Source: Apostichopus japonicus
Lineage: Eukaryota > Echinodermata > Holothuroidea > Aspidochirotida > Stichopodidae
DNA length: 64,000 nt
NCBI RefSeq assembly: GCF_037975245.1
Contig: NC_092567.1
Span: forward strand, 26,656,876 to 26,720,875
Direction of reading: 5' to 3'
Below, in pieces: positions 1,065-62,130 of the stretch; position 1 is the stretch's first letter, and every line of letters begins with the position of its first letter. Position numbers and translations under genes: made by a program. The notes below the pieces were generated by a model. The model worked only from the letters and a program-made list of their open reading frames with translations. It was not told the DNA's origin and ran no database searches.

Positions 1065-4000
1065 CTGATTGTGATGGATTTGGTCTTTCAGTTCCATATC
1101 GGACACAAAGCCATCTCCATTCTTGTCTATCTTATCAACAATTTTGCTGCAAGGAAAAGGGAACAACAAATAAAGAATTACATAAAAAGTAAACATTCAC
1201 CATCATTGTAAACATATGTCATTCAAACACTGGCTGAAAGATGAATAATGAATACCAGGGGAAACCCTGTATAACTAGTATAAACAGAGAGGAATATTAG
1301 GTGGTAAACCAACACCAGGGAGCAATTAATTTCATCACATTTACAGGTAACATAAATAGCAGTAACATGTAAGTGCTGTGTATGAATAAAAGACTTACTT
1401 TACATTGTCAAGGACAGGAGCATACACTGAATGCAATGGTTTATGATATGTCAGATCAGATAGAAAACTTACCCTCAACATCAGGTGAGAGTAAAGACAT
1501 GTATCAAACCAACTTAGATAAGGGATAGGAAAAATTCAGGGAATACTTTAGTATTAAAATTTTGCATGAAATGATAAGCAACTATATAGTAAACCCCCTG
1601 GTAACAAAGTGTATCAATCCCAAACCACAGTACATAAGATAAGCCCTACCCATTAGATGATGTCATAATGGCTGACTTTGTTCTAGACCCCCTAATTGAC
1701 CAGAAGAGTACTGTGTATTCATTATACAATGCTGTTTATCAGCAGAGTGTTATCTGACTTCATTGAATAGGGATATATATAATTACACTCTCCATCTCTT
1801 TGTACTAGTGATTGTTTCTTGCATTTCAATACACTGTTTGGAGTCAATAACCAAACATTACTGCGTATAACTTTTGAAGTCTCTGAAGTTTTTCTCTTAT
1901 AATGTTCTATGGTTCCTGTTTACAACACTGCTAGTGCTACATACATATATTCGAATCGTATAGCAATTTGCCTATATTGTAGGTCTATGGCATATATGTA
2001 GATTATTCTCTACAATTTCATAAAAACTGAGTCCCGTTTGTTAGACTTTTTGGGGAACTGACTACACAGTTTATGCAATTTAGACCAGAGCTCAGTTCAT
2101 AAGCCACTTTCAAGAAGAAATTTCAAGCGGATATGGATAAGATTTTTTCCTGGTCTCAGGGGTGGCAAATGCATAGGCGTACGGGACCATTTCAGTTTGG
2201 GGGGGCAGAACTTTTTGTGCCCGAAAGTTCCCGTGACACTATCTAAGCGGAGCGCCACCATCGGTTGGCGCGTAGCGTACAAGAAAATTTTTGGCACACA
2301 ATGCCTCTCAGATTGCCGGAAACGGCACTTCTGAGGCCTTGCAAGTTGCATCTAAACATTCTTTATTTTATAATCTCACGATTTAGAAATTTACACTTCC
2401 CCAAAAATTTGGTAAATTAGAAGAAGAAAAAATGGTAACATCACTTTGAAGGGGAAAAATGGGACAGTACATTTTTGAAGCTCCTATTTAGTTACCTTAT
2501 TTATTATTTTAACACAGTACTCAGCTACCTCCAGAAAAACATAAATTGTTCAACGACACGTAGGCGGGATAATGTCGCTGTGTCGGGTGAGACTGCAATT
2601 TGTCTCACAAAAAAGTATAAAATATAACAAAGAATATGATAAACGTGTACTTCTAGGCTTGTAGGCACCCCCCCCCACCATCCATGAACAAGAATACGTT
2701 TCTTATATACACTCATGTTGGGGATGTCCAGGTCAAGGGCAGCGGAAGCACTTTTAATCTTGGGGGGGGGGCACCGACATCAAAGGGCACTTTGCAGATA
2801 TTCGATTGGACTGATGCAGCCTTATATTTAGTACCCTTTATAACTCTTATTGTATTATCTTATTTGTGTAAACACATCACTCCATCAACGCCGCCCCCCC
2901 CCCCCCCTAAAAGAAAATATGCATACTAGCACTGCAATATCCAATGCGCAAATTGGGAAACAAAGAACAAGTTTTCTTTTTAGACAAAATGAGGTGAAAT
3001 CATGCTAGTTGCTAATGTAGGAATCTTCCGAATTAGAGTTTTTTTCTTGTTAATATCTAAACAAATCTTTTTCATTCGAAATAGCTTTGACTTTGACCCA
3101 CAGAAATTCATTAAAAGTCACGGGCTTAGCCAGGATTTGCAAAGTTGTATGCACGACTATCTGAACGGAGCGCCACCATCGGTTGGCGCGGAGCGTACTA
3201 GAAAATTTTTGGTTTAACAAACTCCTCAGATGGCCGGAAACGGCCCTTCCCGAGTGTTCATTCTGGTTCCCTGGCCTCTTACTAACTTGAGGCACCTCAA
3301 TTTTTATGTAGAAAAAAGGCACATTTTTAACCTCAGGAAAAGTGGGGGGCACGTGCCCCCTGTGCTCCCCCGGTTCCGCCGCCCTTGGTCCAGGTATACA
3401 ATTGACTAGTTAGAAAAAAATTGATCGTGCCAAAAGCGTGGTAGCCCAGATGAACTGCGCTTACGGTGGTGTTACACGGAAATATTCGGGCATCATGATG
3501 CTAAATAAAAAAAATCATGGAATTGTCGGGCAAAAATTTGAAAAAGATTCGGGCAAGCTACTGCATATTTATATATATATATATATGAACTGCGCTTACG
3601 GTGGTGTTACACGGAAATATTACCTCTTTTAGCAGCTTCATATATATATATATTTCCAGAGGACAAGAAATTCGGGCAAGAAATTCGGGCAAAAGTCCTG
3701 AACAATTCGGGCAGCCTAAGAGGAGAAAAAAAAAATATATATTTTTTCTCCTCTTAGGCTGCCCGAATTTTTCAGGACTTTTGCCTGAATTTCTTGTCCT
3801 CTGGAAATTTGGGGGGGGGCAGTCTGCCCCCCCTGCCCCCCGCCTCGTACGCCTATGGGCAAATGCTTTTTAATATTGACAAATGTAAGGTAATGCACAT
3901 AGGTAGTAGTAACCAAAAGTTTACATACAATCTTAATGGTGTGGATTTAGAGGAGGTCTCTGTTGAAAGAGACCTAGGTATCTACATTGACTCATCTCTG

Positions 4001-5224
4001 CAACCTTCTAAACATCGTCTTGAAGCTGCTAAAAGAGGTAATAGGGTTTTGGGTATGATCAAGAGGAACTTCAGTTTTCTGAAAGAGGACATCGTAGTTA
4101 GGCTTTATAAGCAGTTGGTTAGGCCTCATCTGGAGTATGCTGTGCAGGCTTGGAACCCTTACTTTGCTAAGGATAAGGAAGTACTTGAAAAGGTCCTGAG
4201 GAGGGCTACTAGGATGATTAGTTCCTTAAAGAGGGTTTCTTATTATAGGCGGTTACAACTGTCGATTGCCAGGTTTTCAAGATTGTGTATGGTTTCGACA
4301 ATTTATCCTTTACCGATTTTTTCTTGTTTTCAAACAGTAGTTGTACTAGAGGTCATTGTCTTAAACTCCAAAAGTCGCATAGTAGGATTAATATTTGGCA
4401 TAACTTTTTTTCTAATAGGGTTGTGAATGAGTGGAATAGTTTGCCTGAGAAAGTTGTACTTGCAAGTAGTGTGAATGGGTTTAAGAATGCTTTGGACAAG
4501 CACTTTAAGCATTGTAATCGGGTCTGAGTGTCTGTGTCTTCAGTTTTTTATTCTCTCTCTATAGGGTCCTTGATGGGGACTTAAGTGTCCCTCCTGATCC
4601 TTTTTTTCTACTAAACTAAACTAAACTTTGTGTGGCACAGCTTTACACTCCAAAAGCCATGGCATCAGTTCTTGGTTAGGCAGCCTTGGCCTATTGTAAC
4701 ATTTGTATTTGAAATACTTAGCCTTCTATTCAGCGAAGTCTTCATGGTGGAAGAATGACATTAAATGTAAATTAAAACTTGTTTGATATTCACGATTACT
4801 GTAACCTAGGCTTGTGTATAACTAGTACTAGTAATAGGGTAAGGCAAGTAAATATGGTACAAGGCTGGTCAGGACGGTAGCCTACTGTACACAAAAATGG
4901 AATTACACAAGGTCCAGCCTAGACCAAATTTAAACTGTTGACAAGGTCTAAGAATGTTTATACTTCTACGGTCACTTACCCAAGCCTTCCTCGACTTTGC
5001 TGTGGGGTCAGATGTTCGAACTGCCTCGCTTCATTTTCACCCAAGAACGCGTCGTGGTCATAGGCTGCGTTGTGTTCATTGTGGCCATCAAAATGTTCCT
5101 GGCTACTAAGTTTTTCAGGATTGTGTACACGAGCGCCATGATCTAGGGTTGCCTTTGTAAATACTGTATTGACTAGGCTAGTAAGAATGAAAGCGAGGGT
5201 AATTGCCGAACGAAAATAATCCAT
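1065..5224 (-). CDS. CREC-family (calumenin/reticulocalbin-like) ER calcium-binding protein, first two coding exons (partial)
   Basis: Two minus-strand exons, 5224-4980 and 1146-1065, join in phase 2 to give the first ~109 residues; the rest lies beyond the left edge. Met is at 5224-5222. Residues 1-23 are a hydrophobic signal peptide. The exon 1 acidic/His-rich segment has the CREC hallmark YDHDAFLG, followed by LTPQQSRGRLG. Exon 2 continues as KIVDKIDKNGDGF with a canonical 12-residue EF-hand loop from Asp89 to Glu100. Donors are GTAAGT (exon 1) and GTAATT (exon 2); the exon 2 acceptor is TTGCAG. CREC proteins are multi-EF-hand residents of the secretory pathway acting as calcium buffers and chaperone regulators. 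Calumenin versus reticulocalbin cannot be decided without the C-terminus. The 3.8 kb intron 1 contains a broken retrotransposon and nested DNA elements. Confidence 0.85.
1147..2089. other. Intron 1 of the CREC gene, no feature recognised
   Basis: AT-rich unique-looking intronic sequence. No exon, RNA gene or delimited repeat was recognised on either strand. Confidence 0.4.
2734..3387. mobile_element. hAT-like non-autonomous element nested in the 2172-3857 element
   Basis: Inverted ends CAAGGGCAGCGG and CCGCCGCCCTTG are flanked by a perfect 8-bp duplication GTCCAGGT (2726-2733 and 3388-3395). Internal poly-G/C tracts and a copy of the GCGGAGCGCCACC-type module near 3165 place it in the same superfamily as its host. 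No coding capacity seen. Confidence 0.85.
3652..3808. repeat. Near-perfect long inverted repeat (hairpin)
   Basis: The left arm, from about 3652 (CCAGAGGACAAGAAATTCGG onward), is the reverse complement of the right arm ending about 3808, around a short A/T-rich loop near 3730-3743. Each arm is about 70 bp. One internal unit (AAATTCGGGCAAG) is repeated in the left arm only. It lies in the right part of the 2172-3857 element. Confidence 0.8.
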
Positions 5225-7934: not shown

Positions 7935-8935
7935 GGTTTGATATCTGGCTATATCTGGATAGATGAAGACTTTATATGGCCATATAAAGCCAGATATATT
8001 TTGATATAATTGTAAGCCAGATATCCATATAAAGTTTGATATGGCCATATAAAGCCAGATATATCTTGATATAATTGTAAGCCAGATATTCATATAAAGT
8101 TTGATATGGCCATATAAAGCCAAATATAACTTGATATAATTGTAATTAGCCAGATATGCATATAAAGTTTGATACGGCCATATAAAGCCAGATATATCTT
8201 GATATAATTGTAAGCCAGATATTCATATAAAGTTTGATATGGCCATATAAAGCCAAATATAACTTGATATAATTGTAATTAGCCAGATATCCATATAAAG
8301 TTTGATATGGCCATATTAGCCAGATATATCTTGATATAATTGTAATTAGCCAGATATGCATATAAAGTTTGATATGGCCATATAAAGCCAGATATATCTT
8401 GATATAATTGTAAGCCAGATATGCATATAAAGTTTGATACGGCCATATAAAGTTAGATATATATTGATATAATTGTAAGCCAGATATCCATATAAAGTTT
8501 GATATGGCCATATAAAGCCAAATATATCTTGATATAATTGTAAGCCAGATATGCATATAAAGTTTGATATGGCCATATAAAGCCAGATATATCTGGATAT
8601 AATTGTAAGCCAGATATTCATATAAAGTTTGATATGGCCATATAAAGCCAAATATAACTTGATATAATTGTAATTAGCCAGATATCCATATAAAGTTTGA
8701 TATGGCCATATTAGCCAGATATATATTGATATAATTGTAAGCCAGATATCCATATAAAGTTTGATATGGCCATATAAAGCCAGATAATTCTTGATATAAT
8801 TGTAATCCAGATATCCATATAAAGTTTTATCTGGCCATATAAAGCCAGATATAACTGGATATAGAGACAATCCAGATATGTAGATAAAGTTTTATCTGGC
8901 CATATAAAGCCAGATATAACTGGATATACATGTAA
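7935..8935. repeat. 65/68-bp minisatellite rich in self-complementary words (~15 copies)
   Basis: The unit contains GATATGGCCATATAAAGCC and GATATAATTGTAAGCCAGAT and recurs every 65 bp, or 68 bp where three bases (TTA) are added before AGCC. The core ATATGGCCATAT is a perfect palindrome, so every unit can form a small hairpin. Copies toward the right edge (after about 8830) diverge more. The long minus-strand frames here arise only from repetition. Confidence 0.9.
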
Positions 8936-38614: not shown

Positions 38615-38867
38615 CAGGGGCGTAGGAAAAGAAATCTCGGAAATCTAGGAAAGAAAAAAATCTCATTTGGAGCACCAAATTGCATCTAAGGCCAGGTGAA
38701 AATGCAAATGGAGTGGGTGTTGAAGTGTGCTACATTGCACCACATTGCATCTGAGGCCACCTGGAAATGCCAAAAAAATTCCACCCCCTTCCCTTGGACC
38801 CCCCCCCCCCCGGCCGGCCATCAGTCTTTAGCCCCCCCCCCCTCACTCAAAAATTCCTACGCCACTG
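38615..38867. mobile_element. hAT-like MITE (253 bp), perfect 8-bp TSD
   Basis: Ends CAGGGGCGTAGG and CCTACGCCACTG are flanked by TATACCTG on both sides (38607-38614 and 38868-38875). The inside (AATTGCATCTAAGGCCAGGTG, C-runs) matches, inverted, parts of the MITE at 39952-40323. Confidence 0.87.
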
Positions 38868-39093
38868 TATACCTGATTTTTTATTCAAAATACGTGTAGG
38901 TGCAAACTACAGGCGAAGGCCGGTTTGCATTGGGCTCAGCTTTTCATTTCCATTTTATTCGTTTACCTTTAGTTTTCTACTTCTTTTATGATTTTTTTAC
39001 ATGTTGGCTCTTACATTCAATTTTATTATTGCATTTACACCTATGTTTTCTTTTTCTAGCAATTGGGGAAGATAAGCCTCGACAGTCCGAGCT

Positions 39094-41116
39094 TATGGCA
39101 AGCCGTTTTAACATTTACCTCGCGATTCGACTTAAGTCGAATACATTTCACTTAAGTGGAATTCAATTTCACTTAAGCAGAATACTATTTAACTTAAGTG
39201 GAATTCTATTTCACTTAAGTGGAATACCATTCCACTTAAGCTTAATTGTATTTTACTTAAGCTGAATTCATCAACTTGTCACTGCATTTTACTTAAGCTA
39301 AATTCTATTTCACTTAAGTGGAATTGCATTCCACTTAAGTGGAATTGTATTCCACTTAAGTGGAAATGCATTTCACTTAAGTGGAATTGTATTCTACTTA
39401 AGTGGAATACAATTCCACTTAAGTGGAGGGTCCTGTCTATTTCACTTAAGTGGAATACAATTCCACTTAAGTGGAAATGCATTCCACTTAAGTGAAATGT
39501 GATTGGATAGTCTATTTCACTTAAGTGGAATGTGATTGGCTAGTCTATTCCACTTAAGTGGAATGTGATTGGCTAGTACATTTACCGCCAAATTTTACCC
39601 ATGCCTTTGCGCGCCATTATAAACAACTTGCCGCGATACGTGTACGTACGTACGTGGTGTCGATATGTGCACAATGAATATCGGCTGTCCATCGGGATCC
39701 AGCTAGCACTTAACATCCGTGCAAGGTGTGTACGTACGTACCTGACCTGGTACCTGACGAATACCATTACCAAAATAAAGCCATGGCAAATACATTATAA
39801 GTGGTTGGAGCTACAGCCGAAAACGCATTGACAAGGGCAAGAAAACGTTTTACTTTTTGTGGATTTGGGGTTTTGGATGGAATCTTTTATTTCGTCAAAA
39901 GTTTCACTATCTAAAAAATTACAAATTCTGCCTTTATTACTTAAACAAGATCAGTGGCGTAGGAAGGTACTTTTGAGTGGGGGGGCTGAAGACTGATGGC
40001 CGGCCTGGGGGAGGGGTCTAAGGGGAGGGGGTGTCCCCCTCCCCTTTGGATTTTTTTTGCATTTCCAGGTGGCCTCAGATGCAATTTGGTGCAATATAGC
40101 ACACTTCAACACCCACTCCATTTTGTAAAGAATTTTGCATTTTCACCTGGCCTTAGATGCAATTTGGTGCTTCAAATGAGATTTTTTTCTCATTTGGAAA
40201 TGAAAAAGGGGTTTTCTGACTTGCGGAGCGGGGGGGGCGGAACGATACTTCCGCCCCCCATATTTTTCACTGGGGGGGGCTGGCGCCCCCCCCAGCCCCC
40301 CCCCCCCGGTTCCTACGCCCTTGAACAAGATGTAAGTCGCCTCTGTTGTGCATCATACTGATTGTTCCCCTGTGCAAGTGAGGAAACAACACTTCGAATT
40401 GTGTCTCTAACAACAATTATTTGATCGCATTCCAGCAATGTTAGATGTGAATGATTAGCCGTAGCCATGATGTACACGTGCAACGAGGATCGACTAAATC
40501 ATCATATGTGATGAGCAATTGAATGCGTTACGACGAACAATACCCTAAATTGTATTTATATGTAAGCCACATATCAACATTTCCACTTAAGTGGAATTGT
40601 ATTTTACTAAAGCAGAATAGAATTCCACTTAAGTGAAATTGACGCCCAAAAGATGTTATTCCACTTAAGTGAAATTGAATTCCACTTAAGTGAAATTGAA
40701 TTCCACTTAAGTGGAATACATTTCCACTTAAGTGGAATTGTATTTCACTTAAGTGGAAATGCATTCCACTTAAGTGGAATTGTATTCCACTTAAGTGAAA
40801 TAGATGGGCTATTTAGCTTAAGTGGAATACAATTCCACTTAAGTGGAAATGTATTCCACTTAAGTGAAATACAATTCCACTTAAGTGGAATGCAATTCCA
40901 CTTAAGTGGAATTCATTTCCACTTAAGTGAAATAGAAATGTCCATTTCTACTTAAGTGAAATTGAATTCCACTTAAGTGAAATTGAATTCCACTTAAGTG
41001 GAATACATTTCACTTAAGTGGAATTCCATTTCACTTAAGTAGAATGTATTCCACTTAAGTGAAATGTATTCGACTTAAGTCTAATTGCGAGGTAAATGTT
41101 AAAACGGCTTGCCATA
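39094..41116. mobile_element. DNA element whose long inverted arms are arrays of CACTTAAGTG palindromes
   Basis: Inverted ends start TATGGCAAGCCGTTTTAACA and finish with the complement at 41116; CGAGCT flanks both sides (39088-39093 and 41117-41122). Both arms (about 39125-39570 and 40575-41090) consist of TTCCACTTAAGTGGAA-like palindromes every ~20-23 bp, about 35 intact ACTTAAGT cores plus decayed ones, separated by spacers such as TTGTA or TGCAT. The middle is AT-rich, has GTACGTACGTAC runs near 39640 and 39730, and is interrupted by a MITE (39952-40323). Repetitive frames reading FHLSGIQFHLSG are by-products. The superfamily is not recognised. Confidence 0.8.
39952..40323. mobile_element. 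hAT-like MITE (372 bp) nested in the palindrome-array element
   Basis: Ends CAGTGGCGTAGGAA and TTCCTACGCCCTTG are flanked by AACAAGAT on both sides (39944-39951 and 40324-40331). G- and C-rich ends, and an interior with CAGATGCAATTTGGTG words shared with the MITE at 38615-38867. Confidence 0.87.
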
Positions 41117-41122
41117 CGAGCT

Positions 41123-41760: not shown

Positions 41761-53692
<11,932 letters not shown>

Positions 53693-60294: not shown

Positions 60295-61763
60295 CCTGTG
60301 TAGACTAGAATGGTCGTATACTATCCAGCTAATGAGGTAGGGGAGAGCTGGGTCCCCGGGTTTGTTTTCCTGGAGGGATAAAACCACCAGAAGTATACGT
60401 GGTTGTTCCAATGTCAGAGTCACGGAGAGCCAGGACCAGAGCACCAGGGACAGCTGTGGTCCCAAGCCCATTTTTTTCACCGTTGTTGTTACACTTACTA
60501 GCATATAATGCAAAAGAGAATATACTATTCTTTTCCATATTTTCCCTGCGGACCCGCAGGCTCGTCAATCATGCTGCGGAAAGAGATCTTATCTCTCCAG
60601 ATATATCTTACAGAGGTTTTTCATTAAACACCGCACCCCCCCCCCCCCCACACCCACATCTCTCTCTTTTTTCTCTTTCATCTCTGAGGCAACAAAGATC
60701 ATAAGAAAGTAAGTGTATATTTCTGCCACTCACATTTGCTATTAAGGATTCAATCCCAGGCGCAGTGCTACTGGTTATTATTCATGAGCATTTTTGTATT
60801 ATCAAAATGAATGCCAGACAATCAAATGATCTACTATATATTTACTACCTCGTTATACGTCTACTCGTCTCAAAATGTCAAGGTCGAGGTTTTGACGTGA
60901 TAATGAAAAATATATATGGAACAATGATATTCGAAAGGTTCGGAAAAGTAGAAATTTTGACGTAAAATAGTCAACATTTCCCATTAGTATCTAGAAGGCT
61001 TCTGGTGAAGACCCAAGTGATTTGTCTGCCCTTACTCCCCCACCCCCCCCCCCCCTGACCATTTTGGTAACCTCCTATGCCACTGATCTGCTTTCACAAA
61101 CTTGTACAAAATATCACAAATATAGGCTGCAGTTCATTTTGTGTTCTAATACTCAACTTTTTGCACATGCCCTGAATAAGGCTTTTCTGATATTTCGCTC
61201 TGCTAATGTACTGCTGATAATTACCATGGAGATGAATGCAGCAAGTCGAATAATTTCTACTGGATGAGCGATCAAAACATTGTTCGCTCCTAAATTGCTC
61301 TCAGTCTGAAAGCAACCGTAAAATCATACTGAACGCCTCATCCAACTTACAGTCAACTTAAGGTTATCAACTATTGGCACTCTATAATAACTTAAACACA
61401 CTTCTCAATCATACAACTTCCTAGGCCTAAACTCACGCACAGCGTTTAACATTACTGTCAAGTGCACACAAACATATGAGCCATATTTTTGCTGGAGAAC
61501 CCCAACTTGCAAATACATGAAGATCGCAATGAAGCCCTCCGTCAGTTGGGATTCTGTGGACTGACCAAACCAGGAGACTGGCAGCGGACTCGTGCAGTGT
61601 AAGAATATACAACAAAGTTAGTATGAGTACACGTAGAGTACCTTTCCGGGTAGAAATGCGTACTAGTTCGAGGAAAAGTAAAACCTAGTCTACCTAGACT
61701 TGCTCTAGGAGTATCTGCATGAGACTTTAAAATACCTCTACTAAGAGAACAAATCCATGAGTA
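60293..61763. other. Right-side intergenic region, no gene recognised
   Basis: No exon or RNA gene recognised. C-runs near 60640 and 61035 occur; the second is followed by CCTCCTATGCCACTG, a lone hAT-like right end at about 61080 whose left partner was not found. Confidence 0.4.
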
Positions 61764-62130
61764 CTAGTATGCGAGAACACTGACAACCATTCTAGAATAC
61801 GGGTACAGAGTACAAATCCATGAGTACCAGTATGCGAGTACACTGACAACCATTCTAGAATACGGGTACAGAGTACAAATCCATGAGTACCAGTATGCGA
61901 GTACACTGACAACCATTCTAGAATACGGATACAGAGTACAAATCCATGAGTACCAGTATGCGAGTACACTGACAACCATTCTAGAATACGGGTACAGAGT
62001 ACAAATCCATGAGTACCAGTATGCGAGTACACTGACAACCATTCTAGAATACGGGTACAGAGTACAAATCCATGAGTACCAGTATGCGAGTACACTGACA
62101 ACCATTCTAGAATACGGGTACAGAGTACAA
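61764..62130. repeat. 63-bp minisatellite (~6 copies)
   Basis: Unit contains GAGTACAAATCCATGAGTAC and CACTGACAACCATTCTAGAA and recurs every 63 bp (61808, 61871 and so on). Because 63 is a multiple of three, two minus-strand frames stay open over the whole array; neither is a credible gene. Confidence 0.95.

Follow-up and report, generated by a model that had tools for sequence, protein, structure and literature searches.

The question raised by this locus is why a 2-kb element in the window (the whole 64-kb stretch of Apostichopus japonicus DNA that was analyzed, on contig C7) carries regular arrays of short palindromes in two inverted arms. The first-pass annotation had placed about 35 palindromes here, and had read them either as NK2 homeodomain sites or as transposase-binding sites. 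Its boundaries for the element (39094-41116) were exact, and its estimate was close to our counts of 36 ACTTAAGT words and 41 CTTAAG cores. The window contains 37 ACTTAAGT words in total, 36 of them inside the element, against a shuffle expectation of 2.0 +/- 1.46; none of 100 shuffles reached 37. The features are collected in Table 1.

Table 1. Features of the palindrome-array element and its borders (positions in the 64-kb window).
Feature	Position	Strand	Description
Palindrome-array transposon	39094-41116		starts TATGGCAAGCC, ends GGCTTGCCATA; sequence reading
Left target-site duplication (TSD), CGAGCT	39088-39093	.	same six bases follow the element
Left terminal inverted repeat (TIR), 30 bp, exact, TATGGCAAGCCGTTTTAACATTTACCTCGC	39094-39123	+	genome matches of the first 26 bases
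Left palindrome array, 19 CTTAAG cores	39125-39577	.	first dyad centre 40 bp from element end
Transposase first-coding-exon remnant	39798-40468	-	ATG at 40468; split by the 39952-40323 insertion
Later insertion, unrelated short element, CAGTGGCGTAGG..CCTACGCCCTTG	39952-40323	.	8-bp duplication AACAAGAT at 39944-39951 and 40324-40331
Right palindrome array, 22 CTTAAG cores	40581-41083	.	first dyad centre 40 bp from element end
Right TIR, 30 bp	41087-41116	-	sequence reading
Right TSD, CGAGCT	41117-41122	.	identical to left duplication

The regularity that had been claimed for the units holds for their spacing: among the 39 distances between CTTAAG cores below 100 bp, 31 were 19-22 bp (27 of 21 bp and 4 of 20 bp). 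It does not hold for their symmetry, as some units depart from a perfect 16-bp palindrome (in the window copy, positions +/-5 were paired in 78% and positions +/-6 in 39%). Spacings of 26, 27, 29, 33, and 36 bp were also present, so strict helical phasing is not kept, and repeat periods of 42, 63, and 120-132 bp were found above the 21-bp head-to-tail unit. The alignments of other copies break around the 372-bp insertion (at 858/1227 of the query); thus, these 372 bp of the 2-kb span are a later insertion, and the element proper is ~1.64 kb. By eye, this insertion and the stretch at 38615-38867 are both short elements that end in CAGnGGCGTAGG-type sequences and are flanked by 8-bp duplications (AACAAGAT and TATACCTG, respectively); in form, they are hAT-like. 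Also by eye, the window has an open frame at 3794-4426 that resembles the C-terminal part of a non-LTR retrotransposon reverse transcriptase; the open frames at 8146-8870 and 61727-62101 consist of short tandem peptide repeats and are probably minisatellites.

In the genome searched (671.6 Mb), the first 26 bases of the TIR gave 394 forward and 392 reverse matches (786 ends) with at most three mismatches, against 0 + 0 for the reversed control, and the palindrome TTCCACTTAAGTGGAA was found at 1150 places, against one for its reversed control. The genome-wide search for the ends, for which a unique locus had been named as the adverse outcome, therefore returned hundreds of dispersed copies. We read 28 elements: the window copy, 20 further copies, two relatives of 21-23 kb, and five elements of a second family (see below). 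The consistent target duplication that had been anticipated across copies was found to be 6 bp long; it was exact in 23 of the 28 and had one mismatch in three, whereas the next six bases outward matched in none (0/28). The two exceptions were L002, with 5 bp (GTGAC), and the composite L001, without any duplication. Since two pairs (L007/L008 and two C12 elements) have shared flanks, apparently from segmental duplication, the number of independent insertions is at most 26. Among the exact duplications, G occupied position 2 in 20/23 and C position 5 in 20/23, i.e., the target is symmetric. All 28 elements have the termini TATGGC..GCCATA at both ends; the presence of the TIR in them is by construction, because they were found by it, and what is independent of this procedure is that the duplication abuts exactly the terminal TA. 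Judged from the many copies and the consistent duplications, the window element is a mobile element.

Two patterns in the distribution of the copies were also seen among the matches listed. Seven exact TIR matches lie within 6.5 kb at C1:11141082-11147575, where L001 reads as a composite; the copies in this cluster appear to be nested or arranged in tandem. The short element is also found, with near-equal scores, at intervals of ~170-240 kb in C19:31.0-32.4 Mb, C20:0.28-1.24 Mb, C21:0.2-0.37 Mb, C11:0.13-0.37 Mb, and C14:0.15-0.37 Mb. Four of these five stretches are near the contig start (C19 being the exception), and the periodicity suggests that the element is part of a large repeat unit, perhaps a subtelomeric one.

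In the interior of the short copies, an open stretch of 98 codons has remained on the minus strand. The 98-aa query matched C7:26696673-26696834 and C7:26697197-26697343, which are the exon remnant of the window, and, besides many short copies, C16:5813049 (38% identity, in a 183-aa open frame), which is the first exon of a gene beside an exact TIR and an array. Two TSD-flanked elements of 21.4 and 22.7 kb with a transposase gene are relatives of autonomous type, for which the first-pass annotation had proposed to look. The C16 relative (C16:5792413-5813831; 21,419 bp) has exact TIRs, the TSD CGAACC, and arrays at both ends; the C1 relative (C1:12260970-12283636), which shares the arrays, is flanked by the TSD CGGCCG, and its left TIR differs by one mismatch. 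The predicted transposase gene of the C16 relative comprises, on one strand, the first exon, a helix-turn-helix (HTH) exon, and an integrase-core exon, the last of which matched PF24764 (rva_4) with an E-value of 2.7e-76 and rve only with 0.22. Pfam searches with the 98-aa exon and the C16 and L031 first exons gave nothing above the cut-off. The HTH exon starts with GRPK/R. In L031 it matched the resolvase HTH domain PF02796 above the cut-off (E 7.7e-6), in C16 and L030 it scored 22.2 and 22.9 bits, just under the cut-off of 23.8, and the L030 exon passed PF13384 (HTH_23) instead (24.7 vs 24.6 bits). Its match to the Hin-DNA complex chain 1HCR was weak (E 0.037).

A second gene, convergent to the transposase gene, ends in a HECT domain (PF00632, E 1.1e-11). 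Transposase places were counted where the open frame was at least 250 aa without stops and the E-value was below 1e-45 (n = 14); 13 of these 14 had a convergent HECT-exon match on the other strand within 5.5 kb (a weak one in the case of C17:23451934, E 3.5e-5), the exception being C12:2795063. The short copies of subfamily B (~1.88 kb) have an interior that resembles, by eye, the HECT-side first exon. In C16, L030, L031, and L035, the distance from the end of the array to the likely start codon of the transposase first exon is ~40-140 bp (start codons by inspection). Between the convergent HECT and transposase genes there is a tandem array with a period of ~161 bp (L026; C16:5805094-5807933), which is present in the C1 copy too. 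Of the 90 integrase-core matches listed, 35 fall in C17:15-26 Mb; many of these are short or broken up, and the stretch may be a graveyard or low-recombination region for these elements.

Eleven relatives (L030-L040) were examined at one end each, upstream of the transposase exons. Other palindromes in the same layout were found in L030 (AGATATCT, 15 times), in L031 and L032 (TGATATCA, 26 times each), and in L035 (TGATATCA, 17 times, with mixed spacing). The first 17 bases of the TIR are common to the window element, L031, L032, and L035; the TIR of L030 is more diverged. The TIR of this second (GATATC) family gave 122 + 124 genome matches at two mismatches, against 0 + 0 for the control, and in the five elements read, all 10 ends had GATATC arrays (8-27 cores per 650 bp) and all five TSDs were exact. 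By eye, L044 (C1:19272239-19275506), a GATATC-family element that deletion has reduced to 3.1 kb, resembles the window element in that it also retains the beginning of the transposase first exon, in damaged form. Over the ends read in both families, at least seven units per 650 bp were present in 55/56; offset 37 was the start of the first core in 52 of these ends and offset 57 in three, one end being without a core. The right end of L011 has a TIR without an array in an element that still has an exact 6-bp TSD. The GATATC core also stands at offset 37 in L030, L031, L032, and L035.

The remaining relatives differed. In L033 and L036, ACGCGT-cored dyads number only 2-4, beginning with one whose centre is at 39. 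The 22-bp array of L034 is loose and only partly palindromic, with a possible dyad at 40, and L039 has a 20-bp array that is not clearly palindromic, with an uncertain element end. No clear palindrome array was found upstream of the transposase in L037, L038, and L040 (one end each), and no clear ACTTAAGT- or GATATC-type array in L037-L040. Because arrays are sparse, loose, or not clear in L033, L034, L036, and L037-L040, the dense array is not general to the relatives. When dyads were searched by score only, the tested fam1, fam2, and fam4 ends had their first unit at 40 (7-8 of 8 pairs). In L030, L033, L034, and L036, it came at 39 or 40 with only 5-6 of 8 pairs, so that the register in these four loci rests on the core word (a loose one in L034). 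Shuffled sequences reached at least six pairs in 67/3300.

The pattern TT-NN-core-NN-AA was present in 9/9 sets measured within elements: positions +/-7 and +/-8 were 94-100% T/A, and positions +/-5 and +/-6 varied, except for +/-6 in L031 and L032. Since units were picked by the six-base core, positions +/-1-3 are invariant by construction; this gap is covered by a core-blind count, in which CTTAAG was central in 40 of the 45 TT-N12-AA words in both arms of the window element. Between copies, the alignment of subfamily A (10 copies, window copy left out) had 21/492 variable columns in core 1-4 plus 7-8, against 50/374 in 5-6 plus linkers (p 2e-6). The difference was also found for 7-8 vs 5-6 (5/164 vs 26/164, p 9e-5) and with A/T columns only (17/404 vs 25/192, p 2e-4), and was borderline with G/C columns (core vs 5-6, 4/88 vs 16/124, p 0.055); core plus flank was also less variable than the array-free middle (64/759, p 0.004). 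In subfamily B (8 copies), the core was taken as 1-3, because position 4 varies there in 9/84 columns; 21/426 columns were variable in core 1-3 plus 7-8, against 53/380 (p 1e-5), and 4/168 in 7-8, against 25/168 in 5-6 (p 5e-5), with core plus flank again lower than the array-free middle (129/1003, p 3e-6). Note that the columns in these tests are not fully independent, as copies share ancestry, and that the majority sequence served to locate the units, a procedure that may slightly favour the ideal.

No comparable constraint was found in the exon remnant of subfamily A. The sample was drawn from 15 copies, of which 12 matched the start pattern; with the window copy dropped and five skipped for indels, six were left (five of them also in the A alignment). 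These had 4 synonymous and 14 non-synonymous changes, an N/S ratio of 0.95, which gives no sign of selection; a selected role for the exon kept in the short copies was accordingly rejected, on 18 changes from a small sample. Half-site compensation was also considered as a sign of dimer binding. Pairing at +/-5 exceeded the shuffle expectation in subfamily A (0.76 vs 0.64) and B (0.51 vs 0.39) and fell below it in L030, L031, and L032; at +/-6, both the window copy (0.39 vs 0.54) and a set of ten further A copies (0.41 vs 0.54) had less pairing than expected from shuffles. Compensation is therefore only partial at +/-5 and absent or reversed at +/-6, and the case for a dimer rests on the position-wise constraint instead.

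With good confidence, we regard the window element as a non-autonomous, internally deleted transposon of the IS3EU/GingerRoot type, with ~20 probable dyad sites for the transposase in the array at each end, and with full-length relatives 21-23 kb long. What the sequences themselves provide for this reading is mobility, the 6-bp TSD, ends common to transposase-bearing copies, the same layout with other words in sister families, and constraint on the sites; dimer binding, regulation of the gene, and any role of the HECT protein are what we infer from them. Because the positions of the dyad pattern are kept and the gap drifts, a dimeric DNA-binding protein is indicated, and the palindromes are most likely dyad sites for an element-encoded dimer, i.e., a transposase with a resolvase-like HTH. 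Of the two functions proposed at first, transposase-binding sites are the better reading, in view of mobility, layout, and position-wise constraint. In Hin, dyads are contacted by a GRP arm, which enters the minor groove, and by an HTH. The exon described above is similar in having a GRP arm followed by an HTH, with an HTH_7 match and the weak 1HCR match, but it belongs to a gene with an integrase core and not to a serine recombinase. Each end of the element consists of a short TIR followed by ~20 sites of the form TT-NN-ACTTAAGT-NN-AA, about two helical turns apart and with the first centred 40 bp in. A transposase dimer would bind each site through its HTH, and many bound dimers would mark and synapse both element ends. 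Binding probably regulates the transposase gene as well, given that the arrays closely precede its first exon. Deleted copies would keep the ends and arrays, and little else of importance, because the transposase needs these.

Four other explanations were weighed. The arrays could be bound by a host protein that silences the element or activates its promoters, and such a regulator could act from where they lie, which in the families read is shortly before the first exon of the transposase. However, the array spacing is tied to the element end, and the change of word between families in one genome, with register and layout constant, fits a partner that changes with the element, so we consider a host protein unlikely. 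Neutral, satellite-like tandem amplification in the transposon ends, with palindromes that have no role, would be in keeping with the 21-bp head-to-tail units and the longer periods, which resemble local duplication, and with the tandem repeats that foldback elements are described to carry in their TIRs (PMC4079207). This is quite improbable in view of the uneven conservation along the unit in two subfamilies, where the core and +/-7-8 are kept and +/-5-6 and linkers vary, and of the fixed distance of the first unit from the end across families with different words.

Dyad-symmetric units in inverted arms might also act as DNA structure, by self-pairing of the arms or as cruciforms or hairpins in transposition. 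Changes on one side should then be matched on the opposite side; the excess of pairing at +/-5 in both subfamilies goes in this direction, but it is far from complete and reversed in L030, L031, and L032, and pairing at +/-6 is below that of shuffles in the window copy and ten A copies, which makes a structural role very improbable. The NK2 reading regarded the arrays as clustered homeodomain sites forming an enhancer or decoy near an aspartyl-protease gene. A start-like ATG does stand at 41761, 645 bp downstream of the element (the claim was ~650 bp), and an aspartyl-protease exon at 50919 (PF00026, E 1.3e-5) is compatible with the cathepsin D-like gene that had been proposed. The NK2 word T-N-AAGTG, as taken from the earlier annotation, accounts for 0.82 of the core half-sites of the window copy. 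However, the C16 relative has it in 0.33 of half-sites at one end and in 0.20 at the other, and L018 (the sole subfamily-B copy counted) in 0.21; its frequency is 0 in the GATATC loci L030, L031, and L044, which have the same layout. The kept TT/AA at +/-7-8 lies outside the word, its final G (+/-5) drifts, and the element is one among hundreds of dispersed copies. The NK2 proposal was accordingly dropped as hardly tenable.

With transposase dyad sites as the preferred reading, the element was compared with known systems. IS3EU elements are described with a 6-bp TSD and TAYGG..CCRTA termini (PMC12730594), or with TA..TA termini and usually a 6-bp TSD (PMC10045372), and TET-bearing fungal IS3EU elements with a second gene, for an alpha-kinase, in opposite orientation (PMC12730594). 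The window family resembles these printed descriptions of IS3EU/GingerRoot in the 6-bp TSD, the TAYGG..CCRTA-like termini, the integrase-type transposase, and the oppositely oriented second gene; it differs from these descriptions in having a HECT second gene and palindrome arrays. The earlier remark, which could point to no named family with this architecture, therefore stands for the palindrome layout, which we did not find in print, and fails for the termini and TSD, which match those printed for IS3EU. Term finds in the main texts of PMC12730594 and PMC10045372 gave no 'HECT', 'ubiquitin', or 'subterminal', and 'palindrom' once overall, in another context.

The soybean CACTA elements (Tgmt*) are described as a 20.5-kb putative autonomous element with deletion derivatives, with many subterminal repeats that can pair as palindromes, whose words differ between subfamilies in one genome, and that are bound by an element-encoded protein (PMC2613891). 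CACTA elements (En/Spm, Tgmt*) are thus similar, as far as described there, in the large element with deletion derivatives and in the subfamily-specific words of the subterminal repeats, and the arrays here probably organise the ends and regulate the gene as TNPA sites do in CACTA elements (PMC2613891). CACTA elements differ in their CACTA termini, 3-bp TSD, asymmetric ends, and TNPA-type protein, whereas the window family has TAYGG termini, a 6-bp TSD, both ends alike, single dyad units, and an integrase-type transposase. Membership in CACTA was rejected on the TATGG termini and 6-bp TSD. The 6-bp TSD of Polinton/Maverick elements is found in the window family as well, and the 5'-AG termini of Polintons are absent from it. 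Foldback elements (FB, Galileo, Tetris, and those of sea urchin) share long terminal arms of tandem repeats, a likeness of form and not of descent; the repeats of Galileo are reported to hold extra transposase-binding sites (PMC4079207), whereas Galileo belongs to the P superfamily and Tetris units are ~220 bp (PMC4168063, PMC3573991). As compared with these descriptions, the units here are 21 bp, each is a dyad, and the family is of integrase type.

IS3EU elements, subterminal repeats, and foldback arms are already known kinds. The dyad array, the change of word between families with a common TIR, and the HECT partner were not found in our searches of open-access papers, and Repbase entries at the family level may exist. 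As a tentative generalization, which we hold to be possible and rather doubtful, there may be a clade of two-gene IS3EU-type elements of 20-26 kb (integrase transposase and HECT protein) in which ~20 like dyad operators per end form a family-specific 'address', with its register 40 bp from the cut and its word differing between families of near-identical TIR. The address would stop sister families from cross-mobilising one another and would build a long transposase filament at both ends, and the HECT protein would tune the transposase or host factors. The convergent HECT gene is a second component of these transposons, and the dense dyad arrays offer ready-made targets with many sites each for a kind of animal transposase that has been little studied. 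With near-identical-TIR families that have different subterminal words in one genome, a change of specificity with the catalytic ends kept becomes directly testable.
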